Assembly (NCBI GenBank): GCA_958296385.1
Contig: OY282494.1
Coordinates: forward strand, 1,223,416-1,287,415
DNA: 64,000 nt
From: an uncultured Dehalococcoidia bacterium
GTDB lineage: Bacteria > Chloroflexota > Dehalococcoidia > Lucifugimonadales > UBA3495
Direction: 5' to 3'
Part shown: in pieces, positions 9,678 to 49,690 of the stretch
Position numbering within the stretch: the stretch's first letter is position 1
Layout of the letters: the number at the start of each line of letters is the position of its first letter
Made by a program: the position numbers and the translations under genes
Notes under the pieces: generated by a model
What the model saw: only the letters and a program-made list of their open reading frames with translations
Databases searched by the model: none
Told to the model about the DNA's origin: nothing

Positions 9678-10703
9678 ATGGAATTCGGAGTTTTCTATCA
9701 AGTCCCCTGCGGAGAGGAGCAAACTCCGGCGGCCCGCTACTCGGATGTTATGTCGCAGGTGCGGCTGGCCGATGAGCTTGGGTTTGACATGGCTTGGCTG
9801 GCCGAGCTGCATTTCGCCCGCCGTTTCTCCGTGATGCCCGCGCCGCTGCTGATGGCATCGGCCCTTTCCCAAACTACCCAGCGCATCATGCTGGGTACGG
9901 CGGTCAACCTGCTGCCCCTGCACCATCCGCTGCGCATCGCCGAGGAGGTGGCCACTCTGGACGTGCTGTCCGGCGGGCGGGCCGTATTCGGGATTGGGCG
10001 CGGTTCCAACCCCAACCACTATCGCGGCTACGGCATCCCCCTGGAGGAACGCAACGCCCGGTTCATCGAGGGGCTGGACATGGCCCTGCGGGCCTGGACT
10101 CACGATCAGCTGGACTATCAAGGCCAATTCTACCAGGCGGACGGCATCCGGCTGGAGCCAAAGCCCATCCAGCAGCCCCATCCGCCGGTGTACGTCGCCT
10201 CCAACGGCGCCGACACTTTCCCGCTGGTGGGCAGCCTCGGCCACAACATTCTGGTTACGCCCATGATTATCACGGTGGAGGGCGTCAGCAATGGCCTTGC
10301 CGTGTATCGCGAAACCCTTGCGGAACACGGACACGACCCGTCGGCCGTCAAAGTCGTGGTGAACGTGCCGGTACACGTGGGCGAAACGCCCGAATCCGCT
10401 AAGGCAAACTTCGCTCCCACCGTCAACAACTACCTCGGCACGCTGCGCAGTATGCAGAACAACTCCCGGGGCTCGTCGCGGGCCAGCCAGCTCACCTACG
10501 ATGATATTTACGGCGAATTGGGCGCGGTAGGCACCCCCGCGCAGGTTATTGAACGGCTGGAATCGTTCCACGAACGCTACAACGCCCAGGAATTCATGTG
10601 CTGGTTCAACATCGGCGGCATCCTCTCCAACGCGCAAGTAGCCCGCTCCATGCAGCTGTTCGCCGCCGAAGTCATCCCCCATTTCCGCAAGCGCGCCGGG
10701 TAG
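9678..10703 (+). CDS. LLM-class flavin-dependent oxidoreductase
   Basis: Bacterial-luciferase-like TIM-barrel monooxygenase or reductase using FMN or F420. The 341-aa sequence has the usual pattern: ADELGFDMAWLAELHF, MLGTAVNLLPLHHPLRIAEEVATLDVLSGGRAVFGIGRGSNP, and a late GTPAQVIERLESF segment that typically packs on the flavin site. ATG at 9678 follows GGGAG at good spacing. Substrate cannot be deduced. A second, different LLM enzyme lies at 53799-54665. Confidence 0.88.
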   Translation: MEFGVFYQVPCGEEQTPAARYSDVMSQVRLADELGFDMAWLAELHFARRFSVMPAPLLMASALSQTTQRIMLGTAVNLLPLHHPLRIAEEVATLDVLSGGRAVFGIGRGSNPNHYRGYGIPLEERNARFIEGLDMALRAWTHDQLDYQGQFYQADGIRLEPKPIQQPHPPVYVASNGADTFPLVGSLGHNILVTPMIITVEGVSNGLAVYRETLAEHGHDPSAVKVVVNVPVHVGETPESAKANFAPTVNNYLGTLRSMQNNSRGSSRASQLTYDDIYGELGAVGTPAQVIERLESFHERYNAQEFMCWFNIGGILSNAQVARSMQLFAAEVIPHFRKRAG

Positions 10704-10757
10704 GGCGCTGCCCTCTGCCAACCCCCTCCAACCGGGCGGGAGGCTTTTGTACTAGCG

Positions 10758-12104
10758 ATGACCGCCCCGCGCAACGCCGGCTCATTGTTTGAGCACAACC
10801 GGCAGCAGCACGCCCTGGATATTGCGCCGCTGGCCGAGCGGATGCGGCCCGCGTCCTTTGATGAATTCGTCGGCCAGGAACACATCCTGGGCGCGGGCAA
10901 AGTGCTGCGCGGCGCTATCGTCAACGACCGGGTGCCGTCGCTGCTGCTCTGGGGGCCGCCCGGTTCGGGCAAAACTACGCTGGCCCGGCTGGTCGCTACA
11001 GTCACCCGCGCGCACTTCGAGCCGGTTAGCGCAGTATCCGCCGGCGTTGCCGACTTGCGCCGTTCGGTGGCCGCGGCGCAGGAACGACAGTCCCTTTACC
11101 AGCAGCCTACCATCCTGTTCGTTGACGAAATCCACCGTTTCAACAAGGCCCAGCAGGACGTCATCCTGCCCCACGTAGAGGATGGCACGGTAACGTTCAT
11201 CGGCGCCACCACCGAGAACCCGTCCTTTGAGGTCAACGCCCCGCTGCTCTCACGCTGCCGGGTGTTCACGCTCCACGCGCTGGCGCCGGAGCAGGTGGCG
11301 GAGATTGTCCGGCGGGCGCTGGCCGACGCGCGGCGCGGGGTCGGGCAGTACGCCGTTGACCTCAGCGACGATGCCCTGGCCCATCTGGTCAACATCGCCA
11401 ACGGTGATGCGCGCGTGGCGCTGAACGCTCTTGAAATGGCGATACTCGGTTCCGAACCCGGCAACGACGGCCGGCGTCACATTGACATCGACACCATATC
11501 CGACGCCCTCCAGCGGCGCACACCCCAATACGACCGGGCCGGCGACAGCCACTACGATACCATCTCGGCGTTCATCAAGTCGGTGCGTGGCTCGTCTCCC
11601 GATGGCGCCCTCTACTGGCTGGCCCGGATGCTGGAAGCCGGCGAGGACCCCCTCTTTATCGCCCGCCGCCTGGTGATTCTGGCTGCCGAGGACATCGGCC
11701 TGGCCAATCCGGGCGCGCTGCCGGTAGCGGTGGCGGCCCAGCAGGCCGTACACTTTATCGGGCTGCCCGAAGGCCGCATCCCCCTGGCCGAGGCCACCGT
11801 CTATCTCGCCACCTCGCCCAAAAGCAACGCCGCTTACCTGGCGTTGGAGCGCGCCTTTGACGACGTGCGCAAAGAACCCAACGAACCCGTGCCGCTGCAT
11901 CTCCGCAACGCCGTAACCGGGTTGATGCGCGGCATGGGCTATGGCGCCGGCTACAAGTACAGCCACGACTACGATGGGCATTTTGAGCCGCAGCAATACT
12001 TGCCCGATGGCTTGTCAGAACGTCGCTACTACCAGCCATCCGACCAGGGCTCCGAGGCCGCCATCGCCGAGCGTATGCGCCGCTGGTGGGGGCCGCAGCG
12101 CTAA
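10758..12104 (+). CDS. rarA: Replication-associated recombination protein RarA (MgsA)
   Basis: AAA+ ATPase of the RarA/Mgs1/WRNIP1 family acting at stalled replication forks. Walker A GPPGSGKTT lies at about residues 66-74, Walker B ILFVDEIHRF at about 119-128, sensor segment IGATTENPSFEVN after it, and the C-terminal tetramerisation half includes DALYWLARMLEAGEDPLFIARRLVILAAEDIGLANP-like sequence. At 448 aa it matches the family length. It starts 54 bp after the LLM gene and may share its transcript. Confidence 0.95.
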   Translation: MTAPRNAGSLFEHNRQQHALDIAPLAERMRPASFDEFVGQEHILGAGKVLRGAIVNDRVPSLLLWGPPGSGKTTLARLVATVTRAHFEPVSAVSAGVADLRRSVAAAQERQSLYQQPTILFVDEIHRFNKAQQDVILPHVEDGTVTFIGATTENPSFEVNAPLLSRCRVFTLHALAPEQVAEIVRRALADARRGVGQYAVDLSDDALAHLVNIANGDARVALNALEMAILGSEPGNDGRRHIDIDTISDALQRRTPQYDRAGDSHYDTISAFIKSVRGSSPDGALYWLARMLEAGEDPLFIARRLVILAAEDIGLANPGALPVAVAAQQAVHFIGLPEGRIPLAEATVYLATSPKSNAAYLALERAFDDVRKEPNEPVPLHLRNAVTGLMRGMGYGAGYKYSHDYDGHFEPQQYLPDGLSERRYYQPSDQGSEAAIAERMRRWWGPQR

Positions 12105-45010: not shown

Positions 45011-46633
45011 ATGACGATGCAGTACGAATTGCTGGCGCACCGCATCCTGGAGCGCGCCGCCGCGCAGTTCCCCGGAAAGCAAATTATCACCCGCGTTGGC
45101 GACGGCGTCCATCGCTACACTTACGCCGACCTTTTCCGGCGCACCGCCCGCCTCGGCAACGCCTTGCGCGCGCTGGGCATCGGGCGCGGCGACCGGGTCG
45201 GCACTTTTGCGTGGAACACCTACCGCCATCTGGAGGCGTACTTTGCCCCGCCCACCATCGGCGCCGTCGTCCACACCATCAACACCCGCCTCGCCCCCGA
45301 CGACATGGCCTACATCATCAACCACGCCGGCGATCAAGTGCTGCTGATTGACCCCGACCTGGCCCCGGCCATCGCCGCCATCGCCCATCGTCTGGATACC
45401 GTCCGGCAGTACGTAATCCTCGGCGAACCGTCGGAAGTGCCCGACTCGCTGCCCGGCGCAGTATCCTACGAATCGCTGCTGGCCGCCGCATCTCCCGAAT
45501 ACAACCCGGCCCACGTCAGCGAATACGACATCATGGGCCTGTGCTACACCTCGGCCACCACCGGCCTGCCCAAAGGCGTGGCCTACTCCCACCGCGCCAT
45601 CTACCTGCACTCGCTAACCTCCGCCGCCGTAGATGTGCTGGCCATGTCCGAGCGCGACCGGGTAATGCCCGTCGTGCCCATGTTCCACGCCAACTGCTGG
45701 GGCCTGCCCTACACCGCCACCCTGGTCGGCGCCGACCAGATATTCCCCGGCGCGCGCCCCGGCCCGCCGGAAATCTGCGCGCTAATCCAGTCTGAGGCCG
45801 TAACTTTCACCGCCGGCGTGCCCACTATCTGGATTGGCGTGCTGGACTACCTGCAACGTTCCGGGGTGGAGTACGACCTGTCCTCCCTGCGCCAAATCAT
45901 CAGCGGCGGTTCGGCGCTGCCCCTGGCCGTCCTGCAAGCCTATCGGGAGCGGCTGGGCGTGGAGATGGTGCACGCCTACGGCATGACCGAGGCCGCCCCC
46001 CTAATCTCCGTGAACCGCCGCCGCACCTGGCTCGATTCCCTGTCCGACTCCGCACGCCTTGACCTGTGCGCCACGCAGGGCGTAATCGCCCCCGGCATCG
46101 ATATGAAACTGGTCGATGAGAACGGCAGCGCGGCCCCCTGGGACGGCATCCAGCGCGGCGAACTGTGGTTCCGCGGCCCCTGGGTTGCCGATGAATACGT
46201 CAACGACGAACGTTCCGCCGAAACTTTCGTGGACGGCTGGTATCACAGCGGCGACATCGCATCCATTGACGCCAACGGCTATATCCAAATCGTTGACCGG
46301 GTAAAGGACATGGTAAAAAGCGGCGGCGAGTGGATTTCCTCCGTTGACCTGGAATCCGCCATCATGGCCCACCCCGACGTGCTGGAAGCCGCAGTTATCG
46401 CCATCCCCCATCCCCAATGGCAGGAGCGCCCGCTGGCCTGCGTGGTGCCCCGCGCCGACGGCGCCGCCCCCCTCACCAAAGACGGCATAATGGAGTTCAT
46501 CACCCCCCGTTTCGCCCGCTGGTGGCTGCCCGACGACGTAGTATTTATCGACGAAATACCCAAGACCAGCGTAGGCAAGTTTGACAAAAAAGCCCTGCGC
46601 GACCGCTTTGCGAACCTCGGCAGCCGCGCCTGA
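45011..46633 (+). CDS. Long/medium-chain fatty-acid-CoA ligase
   Basis: Adenylate-forming ligase, 540 aa, activating carboxylic acids to acyl-CoA. The AMP-binding P-loop TSATTGLPKGVAYSHR is near residue 178. HAYGMTEAAPL, WYHSGDIASIDANGYIQIVDRVKDMVKSGGEW and the C-terminal catalytic lysine region PKTSVGKFDKKALR are all present. ATG at 45011 has AGGAG at good spacing. Chain-length preference cannot be read. It is followed by ccmA after 22 bp. Confidence 0.92.
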   Translation: MTMQYELLAHRILERAAAQFPGKQIITRVGDGVHRYTYADLFRRTARLGNALRALGIGRGDRVGTFAWNTYRHLEAYFAPPTIGAVVHTINTRLAPDDMAYIINHAGDQVLLIDPDLAPAIAAIAHRLDTVRQYVILGEPSEVPDSLPGAVSYESLLAAASPEYNPAHVSEYDIMGLCYTSATTGLPKGVAYSHRAIYLHSLTSAAVDVLAMSERDRVMPVVPMFHANCWGLPYTATLVGADQIFPGARPGPPEICALIQSEAVTFTAGVPTIWIGVLDYLQRSGVEYDLSSLRQIISGGSALPLAVLQAYRERLGVEMVHAYGMTEAAPLISVNRRRTWLDSLSDSARLDLCATQGVIAPGIDMKLVDENGSAAPWDGIQRGELWFRGPWVADEYVNDERSAETFVDGWYHSGDIASIDANGYIQIVDRVKDMVKSGGEWISSVDLESAIMAHPDVLEAAVIAIPHPQWQERPLACVVPRADGAAPLTKDGIMEFITPRFARWWLPDDVVFIDEIPKTSVGKFDKKALRDRFANLGSRA

Positions 46634-46655
46634 CCCGGCCGGCCGGCGGGTTGCG

Positions 46656-47333
46656 ATGACTGCCCCATCCGAGCCGACTGCCGCCATCGCGGTAGCCGGG
46701 CTGCGTAAAGATTTTGGCGATCGACGGGTGCTCCGCGATTTAACCCTGCAAGTCGGCTGGGGCGAAATCGCCGCCCTTTTCGGCTCCAACGGCGCCGGCA
46801 AAACCACCCTGCTCCGCATCCTGGCCGGCCTGGCCCGCCCCGACGCCGGCCAAATCAGCCTCGCCGGCCGCCGCATCCACCGCCGCAGCGACCACGCCCG
46901 CCGGCTAATCGGCTTTGCCGGCCACGATACCCTGCTCTACAACGACCTCACCTGCCGGGAGAACCTCGCTTTCTACGCCCAGCTTTACGGCATCCGCAAC
47001 CCCGCCGCACACATCGCCGCCGTACTCCGGCAAGTCAACCTGTCCGACCGGGCCGATCGGCGGGTACGCACGCTGTCCCACGGTATGCAGCAGCGCCTGT
47101 CGGTAGCCCGCGCCCTGCTCCACGAGCCGGTCATCCTGCTGCTGGACGAACCCGAATCGGGCCTCGACCAAACATCCATTGACACCCTGGGCCAGCTGCT
47201 CCACGACTGGGCCGCCGCCGGCAAAACCGCCCTCCTCACCACCCACAACGAGCAGATCGGGCTGGCCTGGGCCCACCGGGCGTTGGGCTTGAACAACGGC
47301 GGCTTGGCCTACGACAATAGGTTGAGCAGATAA
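46656..47333 (+). CDS. ccmA: Heme exporter ATP-binding protein CcmA
   Basis: ABC ATPase of the cytochrome c maturation heme-handling complex, 225 aa. Walker A GSNGAGKTT is near residue 43, the signature LSHGMQQRLSVARALL follows, and Walker B is ILLLDEPESGLD. ATG at 46656 is used; the longer frame begins inside the acyl-CoA ligase. It abuts ccmB with four bases between the stop and the next ATG. Confidence 0.9.
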   Translation: MTAPSEPTAAIAVAGLRKDFGDRRVLRDLTLQVGWGEIAALFGSNGAGKTTLLRILAGLARPDAGQISLAGRRIHRRSDHARRLIGFAGHDTLLYNDLTCRENLAFYAQLYGIRNPAAHIAAVLRQVNLSDRADRRVRTLSHGMQQRLSVARALLHEPVILLLDEPESGLDQTSIDTLGQLLHDWAAAGKTALLTTHNEQIGLAWAHRALGLNNGGLAYDNRLSR

Positions 47334-47337
47334 TCCA

Positions 47338-48012
47338 ATGAAACTGCTGCGCCCCACGCTGGCCATCGCCTGGAAAGACGTCCGTCTGGAGCTGCGTTCC
47401 CGCGATACCGTCATCTCCGCGCTGGTGTTCGGGCTAATCGTCGTAGTGGTATTCAACTTCGGCCTGAACCGCGCGCCCGGCAGCCTGGCCCCGGTTGCGC
47501 CGGGCCTGCTCTGGGTGGCCTATTCCTTTATCGGCGTGCTGGCGATGAACCGCACTTTTGCCAGAGAATTGGAACACGGCGGCCTCGACGGGCTGCTGAT
47601 TGCCCCGGTTAGCCGGGATGCCGTCTTTCTGGGCAAGGCGTTGGGCAGTCTGGTTTTTATGCTGGTGATTCAGGCCATCCTGCTGCCGGTGTTCGCCGTG
47701 ATGCTGGGTCTCCCGGCCTTATCGCCCGTCCTCGGGCTGATAATCCTGCTGGCCACGGTTGGCTTTGCCACCATCGGCACTTTCTTTGCCGGCATCGCCG
47801 TCCAAACCCGTTCGCGGGAAATTCTGCTGCCGGTGCTGTTCTTTCCCGTAGTCGTCCCCATCATCATCGCGGCGGTCGAGGCAACGGCGCTGGCCTTGCA
47901 GGGCGGCCCGGCCGGCCCCATCTGGAGCCGCTGGATACCGCTGCTGGTAGTTTTTGACGCCCTGTTTTTGGTAGTATGTTCGTGGATATTCGCTTTCGTG
48001 TTTGAGGGATAG
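47338..48012 (+). CDS. ccmB: Heme exporter membrane protein CcmB
   Basis: 224 aa with about six membrane segments, the permease partner of CcmA in releasing holo-CcmE. The N-terminal IAWKDVRLELRSRD followed by TVISALVFGLIVVVVFNFGL, and FARELEHGGLDGLLIAPVSR, are characteristic. The gene sits between ccmA and ccmC without gaps. Confidence 0.92.
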   Translation: MKLLRPTLAIAWKDVRLELRSRDTVISALVFGLIVVVVFNFGLNRAPGSLAPVAPGLLWVAYSFIGVLAMNRTFARELEHGGLDGLLIAPVSRDAVFLGKALGSLVFMLVIQAILLPVFAVMLGLPALSPVLGLIILLATVGFATIGTFFAGIAVQTRSREILLPVLFFPVVVPIIIAAVEATALALQGGPAGPIWSRWIPLLVVFDALFLVVCSWIFAFVFEG

Positions 48013-48018
48013 TTTATC

Positions 48019-48765
48019 GTGGCCTCTCCGGGCCGCCGGGCCGCCGGCGGCAACTCACTGCTCCGGGCAGCGCGGAGCGCATCGCTCTGGTTCCTGCTGC
48101 TCACCGCCGCGCTGCTGCTGGCCGACGGCTACCTCATCTTTATGGTAGCCCCCACCGACGCCGTTCTGGGCGACGTCCAGCGCATTTTCTACATCCACGT
48201 GCCGATTTCCATAATATCCTTCCTCGGCTTTTTCGTCTGCGCCGTCGCCGGCATCGCCTACCTGATCCGCCGCTCCGAGCGTTGGGACAGATTGGCCCAC
48301 GCCTCCGCCGAAGTCGGCGTGATTTTCGTAACCCTGGCCCTGGTAACCGGCGTCATCTGGGCCCGCCCGGTGTGGGGCGTCTGGTGGACATGGGAACCCC
48401 GCCTCACCACCACGCTAATCCTCTGGCTAATCTACGTCGCCTATCTGATGATACGCCACTACGCGCCCACCCCCCAGCAGGGGCGCTCCTGGTCAGCGGT
48501 AGTCGGCATCATCGGCTTCATCGACGTGCCCATCGTGTACTATTCCGTGCAGTGGTGGCGGTCCATCCACCCCGTACAAGTAATCGGCCCCGAGGCCGCC
48601 GACGACGCCCTGGAACCCATCATCAGCCGCATCCTGATCTTCTCCCTGATCGCCATCCTGATGCTGGCCTGCTACCTGGTAATGGAGCGAATGATGCTGC
48701 GCGCCGCCGAGGACAACATCACCGAACTGCGCCGCCAGCAGCAGGACGCATCCCCTGACTACTAA
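48019..48765 (+). CDS. ccmC: Heme transporter CcmC
   Basis: 248-aa membrane protein that loads heme onto CcmE. It has six predicted helices, and the tryptophan-rich heme-handling motif reads WGVWWTWEPRLTTT, with Glu where most CcmCs have Asp (WxWDxRLT). The external-loop histidines HVPISIISF and SIHPVQ are in place. Start is GTG at 48019. The last two codons and the stop lie inside the first unit of a seven-copy 14-bp repeat. Confidence 0.92.
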   Translation: MASPGRRAAGGNSLLRAARSASLWFLLLTAALLLADGYLIFMVAPTDAVLGDVQRIFYIHVPISIISFLGFFVCAVAGIAYLIRRSERWDRLAHASAEVGVIFVTLALVTGVIWARPVWGVWWTWEPRLTTTLILWLIYVAYLMIRHYAPTPQQGRSWSAVVGIIGFIDVPIVYYSVQWWRSIHPVQVIGPEAADDALEPIISRILIFSLIAILMLACYLVMERMMLRAAEDNITELRRQQQDASPDY

Positions 48766-48854
48766 CGACTGACTACTAACGATTGACTGCTAACGATTGA
48801 CTGCTAACGATTGACTGCTAACGATTGACTGCTAACGATTGACTGCTAACGATA
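48757..48854 (+). repeat. Seven-copy 14-bp tandem array between ccmC and ccmD
   Basis: Exactly 98 bp: seven units close to GACTGCTAACGATT. The first two read GACTACTAACGA(C/T)T and the last ends in A. Unit one contains the ccmC stop codon; each unit holds a TAA in one frame. The array ends 29 bp before ccmD. It is not CRISPR-like because there are no spacers. Confidence 0.95.
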
Positions 48855-48883: not shown

Positions 48884-49066
48884 ATGGAACTCCCACCGCA
48901 AAACCTGCCCTTCCTGTTCGCCGCCTTCGCGGTGGCCTGGATCGTATTCTTCGCCTACGCCGGCTATATGTCCTGGAAACGCCAAACCGCCCAGCGCGAG
49001 CTGCGGGAACTGTCCGACGAATGGCAAACCCAGCGCAACACCCCACCCGAAAACGACGGCCCGTAG
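48884..49066 (+). CDS. ccmD: CcmD small heme-export protein
   Basis: 60 aa with one membrane helix (residues about 8-30) and a charged cytoplasmic tail WKRQTAQRELRELSDEW. This size and pattern, together with its place between ccmC and ccmE, identify it as CcmD, which helps release CcmE from CcmABC. GGAGG is 13 bases upstream. Confidence 0.85.
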   Translation: MELPPQNLPFLFAAFAVAWIVFFAYAGYMSWKRQTAQRELRELSDEWQTQRNTPPENDGP

Positions 49067-49084: not shown

Positions 49085-49690
49085 ATGGACAGCCGCCGCA
49101 ACCGCCCGACGCCATCTGACCGACGCCATTTGATTGAGCCCATGCAATCCAACAACACCATACCCCCAGCAGCGCCCGAACCGGCAATTCTACTCCCCCG
49201 CGATGACGCGGAAACCGCCTCGGCGTGGCGCAGTCATCGGGTGCGCCTCGGCATCCTCGCCGGCGTAGTCGCTTTGGCCGTAACCTACATGGTCTTTGCG
49301 GCTTTCCCCGGCAACGCCCAGTTCTTCGTAACGGTCAGCGAGTTCCGCAACGACGCCTCGTTGCAGGACGGGCAAACCCTGCGCGTCTCCGGCGCCCTTG
49401 TACCGGACACGTTCCAGCGGCAGAACGGCTCCACCCTGTCGCAATTCATCATGGGCGACAAAGAGCCGGACGTGCCGGGCGTTGCTGTGGACAGCCCCCA
49501 GCTCCGCGCCAGCTACGTCGGCGTGCTGCCCGACTTGTTCTTCAACCCCCACTCGGAAATCATCCTGGAGGGCAGCTACGACCCGCACAGCCAAACGTTC
49601 GTAACCGACAACATTCTGGTCAAGTGCCCCTCAAAATACCAATCCCTGCAAGCCGAATACCCGGACGCCATCCCCGGCGATAACAGCTAA
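49085..49690 (+). CDS. ccmE: Cytochrome c maturation protein CcmE, CxxxY type
   Basis: Heme chaperone with one N-terminal membrane anchor (VRLGILAGVVALAVTYMVF) and an OB-fold periplasmic domain. Where proteobacterial CcmE uses HxxxY, this protein has VKCPSKYQS: Cys181 and Tyr185 (long-start numbering). The Cys variant is known from archaea and some bacteria and goes with a modified System I. The start is ambiguous: ATG 49085 (TATAAT overlaps it) or ATG 49142. No ccmF, ccmG or ccmH is in the window. A strong hairpin follows. Confidence 0.9.
   Translation: MDSRRNRPTPSDRRHLIEPMQSNNTIPPAAPEPAILLPRDDAETASAWRSHRVRLGILAGVVALAVTYMVFAAFPGNAQFFVTVSEFRNDASLQDGQTLRVSGALVPDTFQRQNGSTLSQFIMGDKEPDVPGVAVDSPQLRASYVGVLPDLFFNPHSEIILEGSYDPHSQTFVTDNILVKCPSKYQSLQAEYPDAIPGDNS

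Follow-up and report, generated by a model that had tools for sequence, protein, structure and literature searches.

A cysteine-type CcmE and a split System I gene set with ccmH in an uncultured Dehalococcoidia bacterium

How does a System I for cytochrome c maturation operate when its heme chaperone, CcmE, carries a cysteine in place of the heme-binding histidine, and when ccmF, ccmG and ccmH are missing from the neighborhood of its other genes? This question is raised by a stretch of 64,000 nucleotides from an uncultured Dehalococcoidia bacterium (here called the window; contig OY282494.1, positions 1,223,416 to 1,287,415), which holds a ccmABCDE cluster ending in such a ccmE gene. Systems of this kind are termed System I*. 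The review by Stevens 2011 (PMC3601427), which credits System I* to Allen 2006 and Goddard 2010, describes it as first noted in archaea and some bacteria, such as Desulfovibrio, and as lacking CcmH. Based on searches of the complete source genome and of related genomes, we conclude that the locus very probably belongs to a complete System I of this Cys type, which is split over two loci and keeps CcmH.

The Cys motif of CcmE

The ccmE gene is the last gene of the cluster (positions 49085-49690 of the window, forward strand) and encodes 201 residues. Its open reading frame (ORF) contains NILVKCPSKYQSL, and the C-terminal end of the protein reads ILVKCPSKYQSLQAEYPDAIPGDNS; an in-frame ATG at 49142 offers an alternative possible start. 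The protein belongs to the CcmE family as judged by Pfam PF03100 (E 4.7e-17, 62.6 bits, cut-off 24.6). As the CcmE models of NCBIfam match only below their cut-offs (best 59.2 of 126 bits), we regard it as a divergent member.

Solved structures of relatives cover the fold of CcmE. Comparison with these structures by phmmer aligned the KCPSKY motif of the window CcmE with KHDENY of E. coli-type CcmE (8ce8_E, 1sr3_A). Cys181 (codon 49625-49627, counted on the sequence) thereby falls on the His of KHDENY, and we therefore assign it to the heme-binding position; Tyr185 is encoded at 49637-49639. Moreover, Cys181 aligns with the Cys of the KCP segment of Desulfovibrio vulgaris CcmE; in the 2kct chain KCP is followed by LEH, with which a purification tag probably begins. 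The initial annotation had read the motif as Cys in place of the heme-binding His and the protein as the Cys variant of System I, and these alignments bear out both readings: the protein shows CxxxY with Cys at the heme-binding position, not the HxxxY of classical System I. No second, HxxxY-type CcmE, which had been named as the observation that would refute this reading, was found, CcmE giving a single match in the whole genome. Relatives from contigs whose titles name SAR202, Dehalococcoidia or Chloroflexi carry Cys at the motif in 44 of 44 cases (37-74% identity over the best segment), which excludes a sequencing or base-calling error at Cys181.

A second locus with ccmH, ccmF and a CcmG-like gene

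That ccmABCDE has no ccmF, ccmG or ccmH nearby had been noted correctly in the initial annotation; its suspicion that CcmH is absent, as in other CxxxY systems, did not hold. The window spans 1.223-1.287 Mb of the source genome (G000 in our labels), a single contig of 3,298,084 bases that is 99.95% complete and 4.77% contaminated. The proposed genome search for ccmF and ccmH located both, adjoining each other near 2.29 Mb, where the sole CcmF_C match and the sole CcmH match above cut-off lie. Thus, an inference of gene absence drawn from one window was corrected by a whole-genome search. CcmH (locus L006, 8898-9419; 173 residues) bears a CPVC motif (PF03918, E 1.4e-27, 96.2 bits) and is encoded directly before CcmF (662 residues; CcmF_C E 3.8e-60); a second CcmH match at E 4 is noise. 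Cytochrom_C_asm gave two genome matches, namely the window CcmC and this CcmF. Together with a CcmG-like gene, ccmH and ccmF lie ~1.0 Mb from the ccmABCDE cluster. CcmABC and CcmF are present in the genome, and the absence of CcmH given in the first description of System I* is not seen.

At 2.28-2.29 Mb, in loci L243 and L006, the row of genes starts with a protein with five CXXCH motifs, a five-heme cytochrome (L243, 5354-6064), which is followed by molybdopterin and 4Fe-4S proteins, a 493-residue membrane protein, NrfD, a 170-residue protein and a one-heme cytochrome c; the 493- and 170-residue proteins fell outside the domain scan. Then follow two ORFs, ccmH, ccmF, a 201-residue ORF, an ORF termed x371 (see below) and, two ORFs beyond ccmF, a thioredoxin with WCGPC. 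We call the latter CcmG-like because the dsbE-type model matches it only below cut-off (94.6 bits, cut-off 123.15). The genes upstream of ccmH-ccmF presumably resemble an alternative complex III operon. The two ORFs that separate ccmH from the cytochrome c gene overlap (L006, 7407-8889); the first, scanned against NCBIfam only, and the second, scanned against Pfam only, had no match there. In a genome of the same order (G098), the arrangement of cytochrome operon, ccmH, ccmF, x371 and thioredoxin recurs without the intervening ORFs (in G098, ccmH, ccmF and x371 were assigned by hidden Markov model (HMM), the other genes by inspection of the ORF list). The two overlapping ORFs are not at the corresponding place in G098 and were perhaps inserted. 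The ccmE of G098 lies on a different contig from its ccmH-ccmF. Since both genomes carry ccmH-ccmF at a separate locus, we consider the ccm cluster to be split in this lineage and not incomplete.

All genes of the window cluster are on the forward strand. The heme ABC exporter ATPase gene ccmA (46581-47333; PF00005 E 1.9e-34; TIGR01189 154.6 bits, above the cut-off of 131.6) starts with TTG, the first in-frame ATG lying farther downstream. It is followed by ccmB (47338-48012; PF03379 E 2.6e-36, above cut-off; TIGR01190 76 bits, below the cut-off of 156.2), ccmC (48019-48765; PF01578 E 4.7e-36, above cut-off; TIGR01191 144.8 bits, below the cut-off of 186) and a ccmD-family ORF of 60 residues (48884-49066), which passes the cut-off of TIGR04391 CcmD_alt_fam (E 2.8e-6, 27.2 bits, cut-off 24). 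A tandem array of about seven copies of the 14-bp unit TGACTGCTAACGAT (48756-48853; Tandem Repeats Finder, 97% matches, score 175) runs from the 3' end of ccmC almost up to ccmD. Throughout the ccm set the Pfam models pass their cut-offs; the NCBIfam models for CcmA and the CcmD family pass as well, and those for CcmB, CcmC, CcmE and CcmF stay below theirs. As most of these narrower models match below cut-off, the set appears divergent from the classical one.

Elsewhere in the genome, Cytochrome_CBB3 (class I cytochrome c) gave five matches, four of them above cut-off. ResB (PF05140) had no match at E up to 0.001 (matches in 5 of 14 control genomes), so there is no sign of System II. No TPR-type CcmI was identified, though no genome-wide search for it was made.

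CcmE type, CcmH and accompanying genes across Chloroflexota

To place this gene content in the phylum, 201 Chloroflexota genomes, evenly drawn, were surveyed with matches accepted at E up to 0.001. CcmE was matched in 140, CcmH in 109, CcmF_C in 142 and DsbD_TM in 184 of them. The CcmE motif column could be typed in 139 of the 140 CcmE genomes (G037 has a fragment only and was left out); it holds Cys or His in every one of them, and no genome has both types. Cys goes with CcmH in 71 genomes and lacks a CcmH match in 33, while all 35 His genomes have CcmH and His without CcmH does not occur. In the subset at least 90% complete, the corresponding counts are 56, 32, 29 and 0. CcmH-bearing genomes outside this tally are G037 as well as G006 and G062, which have no CcmE match. 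The window's own class contributes nine typed genomes, four with CcmH (three Cys, one His) and five without a CcmH match, all Cys.

These counts are consistent with CcmH loss being possible only with a Cys-type CcmE; given few evolutionary switches, they are no proof. In a CcmE tree calculated with FastTree after removal of the motif columns (187 rows, 116 columns), the best topology requires at least three type changes, and a single change is compatible with the well-supported branches, 79 of the 184 inner forks being open. An association of His/Cys with CcmH through many independent events is not supported: one independent pair lies on well-supported branches, too few for a test. The counts of CcmE type and CcmH across the phylum add to the earlier published account, and the phylum offers a natural test bed for why CcmH is dispensable.

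Several loci of the survey stand out in themselves. Two His-type CcmE proteins of family f28 (L144 in G016, L143 in G026) carry a Cys directly after the His (HCATY, HCSTY). In G002 and G015 (L009 and L010) two ccmE copies are adjacent, one with CPSKY and the other with CPHSY or CPHRY. In families f60 and f26, at two loci from Cys-type genomes that lack CcmH (L209, 7652-8656, and L215, 7755-8834), the ORF after ccmF shows DnaJ domain and TPR matches around cut-off.

The initial annotation had also pointed to WxWE in CcmC. The motif reads so (WGVWWTWEPRL, 48373-48405), but as a companion of the Cys-type CcmE it fails. In the CcmC motif alignment that had been suggested, the 79 rows with Cys-CcmE divide into 27 with E, 50 with D and 2 with T at this position, and the 32 rows with His-CcmE into 9 with E and 23 with D (a few genomes, covered by two loci, are counted twice). 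The aligned column was preferred to a stricter motif search, which recovered no motif for 46 Cys and 7 His entries. E or D is therefore unlinked to CcmE type. Among 39 titled relatives with ccmC beside ccmE, 22 have E, 15 have D and 2 have T; WxWE is a lineage trait, common in near relatives and independent of CcmE type.

The x371 gene of the source genome (L006, 12345-13460; ~2.292-2.293 Mb) lies beside ccmF/ccmH and before the CcmG-like thioredoxin. The protein appears to consist of a beta-rich exported domain and a transmembrane helix. It belongs to no clear Pfam or NCBIfam family, matches to carboxypeptidase-regulatory-like models remaining below cut-off. The CcmI model TIGR03142 matches 4 of 21 family members below cut-off (best E 0.045). 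In many members the transmembrane segment is followed by a CcmI-like helical stretch at the C terminus; the copy of the source genome lacks this stretch. With hhalign, it aligned over 44 columns with the loop found in four plasmid-borne CcmI proteins (probability 88; single-pair E 3.1e-6). Further members lie at L224, 6283-7086, and in L237, the Metabacillus plasmid pB218, at 10655-11587. A relative is encoded between ccmH and ccmA on a Metabacillus plasmid with a CPSKY CcmE (HMM E 6.5e-19, hhalign probability 97.9). Beside the CPSKY CcmE of the Metabacillus plasmid pB218, a protein annotated as CcmH (L237, 9799-10299) has no CPxC; its N-terminal region contains PPGCTDSMTADYC.

Members of the x371 family occur in Chloroflexota of both CcmE types. 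In the regions taken first, 44 of the 104 Cys genomes and 2 of the 35 His genomes showed x371, the stretch behind ccmH being cut off in many His loci. It is present in 12 of 20 additional, longer His-type stretches, which rejects x371 as a marker of Cys-CcmE only; the stretches of Cys genomes without x371 were not lengthened likewise, and the Cys count may be too low. x371 is better regarded as accessory to ccmF/ccmH loci, where it may stand in for a TPR-type CcmI. The family offers a tangible candidate for a new factor in cytochrome c maturation. Eight ORFs chosen from those behind CcmH in loci of the His type comprise two with clear TPR repeats and below-cut-off matches to the CcmH/CycH TPR model, four for which Pfam gives no match, a DsbD_TM protein and a BNR-repeat protein. 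As a separate observation, one or two CXXCH motifs also occur within 13 of the 53 reading frames of x371, which gives these the look of fusions to cytochrome c domains (L154, L160, L164, L165, L174, L176, L180, L182, L184, L187, L202, L204 and L211).

Competing explanations and known systems

The genes, their motifs, positions and copy numbers are direct observations; heme chemistry, partners, clients and activity we infer from studied relatives. By analogy with these, CcmABCD would export heme and load it onto CcmE. There Cys181, instead of a His, would form the bond to heme, with Tyr185 as the likely axial ligand. Holo-CcmE would then hand the heme to the CcmF/CcmH synthetase encoded ~1.0 Mb away, which would attach it to CXXCH apocytochromes; the CcmG-like thioredoxin would keep these in the reduced state. 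The system would probably serve mainly the five-heme and one-heme cytochromes encoded by the operon before ccmH-ccmF.

This gene content bears directly on the strict, first-described form, in which a Cys-type CcmE works without CcmH and CcmG and CcmF alone attaches heme. Archaeal and Desulfovibrio systems with Cys-CcmE are reported to operate without CcmH (PMC9084895, PMC3601427), and this form would fit the 33 of 104 Cys-type Chloroflexota genomes that have no CcmH match; five of these, from families f3, f5, f11 and f15, are among the nine typed members of the window's class. In the source genome, however, ccmF is adjoined by the gene for a CPVC-bearing CcmH and accompanied by a CcmG-like gene, likewise in G098, so that the CcmH-less form is refuted on gene content and we consider it quite improbable here. 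It is also highly improbable that CcmF/CcmH serves the respiratory-type operon only, with CcmE and CcmABCD doing other work such as heme export or heme b delivery. The distance of ~1.0 Mb between the two ccm gene groups and the position of ccmH-ccmF behind that operon would suit such a division, yet the genome has one CcmE and one CcmF_C protein, which are therefore the only evident partners of each other, and across the survey the two families occur in nearly equal numbers of genomes (140 and 142). A further alternative takes the Cys as a non-covalent heme ligand only, or as incidental, and CcmE as a non-covalent carrier. D. vulgaris CcmE is reported to hold ferric heme non-covalently through the same Cys (PMC3884852), but covalent binding is reported for CcmE of Desulfovibrio desulfuricans (PMC3601427, PMC3884852), and the restriction of the motif position to Cys or His in all typed genomes also speaks against it; we judge it unlikely.

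The complete, split System I with CcmH is favored by the 71 of 139 typed genomes that combine Cys-CcmE with CcmH. Several points weigh against it. Heme binding through Cys181 is predicted from sequence, the two Desulfovibrio proteins differ in the covalency of their heme, the ccmABCDE and ccmH-ccmF loci are joined by function alone, and the five same-class typed genomes have no CcmH match. In addition, the source genome has no match to DsbD_TM (PF02683), even at E up to 10, and none to DsbD_2 (PF13386) at E up to 0.001, by which a hidden DsbD/CcdA was rejected. DsbD_TM was also not found in G098, G170 and G194; G000, G098 and G170 do have a CcmH match, which in G098 and G170 spans one stop codon (in G098 the ORF's own terminal stop). 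In total, a DsbD_TM match is lacking in 8 of the 109 CcmH-bearing genomes (G000, G006, G014, G056, G098, G105, G170 and G185), four of which are less than 90% complete. A wider proposal, which we put forward as doubtful, is that the Cys-type System I of this lineage uses CcmH and the CcmG-like protein without DsbD/CcdA, that x371 replaces CcmI in holding the apocytochrome, and that across the phylum CcmH is indispensable with His-CcmE and optional with Cys-CcmE.

In open-licence literature, no paper was found on ccm in SAR202 or on ccmF with alternative complex III in Chloroflexi. For CcmE in Chloroflexota it gave PMC3601427 and otherwise papers on other subjects by title and abstract, and Chloroflexus was unnamed in the open-licence papers among the matches listed. 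In its larger data set, PMC3601427 gives delta-Proteobacteria as the largest Cys-CcmE group and also includes Chloroflexi and Firmicutes; it reports CPSKY in 25 of 36 bacterial genomes and CcmH in about one third of the bacteria with Cys-CcmE, whose absence it does not regard as characteristic. The present system shares with System I* the Cys-CcmE with CxxxY, its occurrence in Chloroflexi and the combination with CcmH already reported there. It differs in its two distant loci, in the ccmH-ccmF and CcmG-like genes behind a respiratory-type operon and in the lack of a DsbD/CcdA match. To the classical System I of E. coli it offers counterparts of A, B, C, E, F and H and D-like and G-like ones; it differs in the Cys for His in CcmE, the two loci, WxWE in CcmC, the lack of a DsbD match and of an identified TPR-type CcmI (within the searches described above). 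With the Ccm system of Methanosarcina acetivorans it shares the CXXXY CcmE, for which the Cys is reported to be required for heme attachment and not interchangeable with His (PMC9084895). That archaeal system is described as lacking CcmD, CcmH and CcmI and as having a split CcmF, whereas here a CcmD-like ORF, CcmH and a one-protein CcmF are found. The locus is of a described kind, Cys-CcmE with CcmH, and its core finding is ordinary for the phylum and published.
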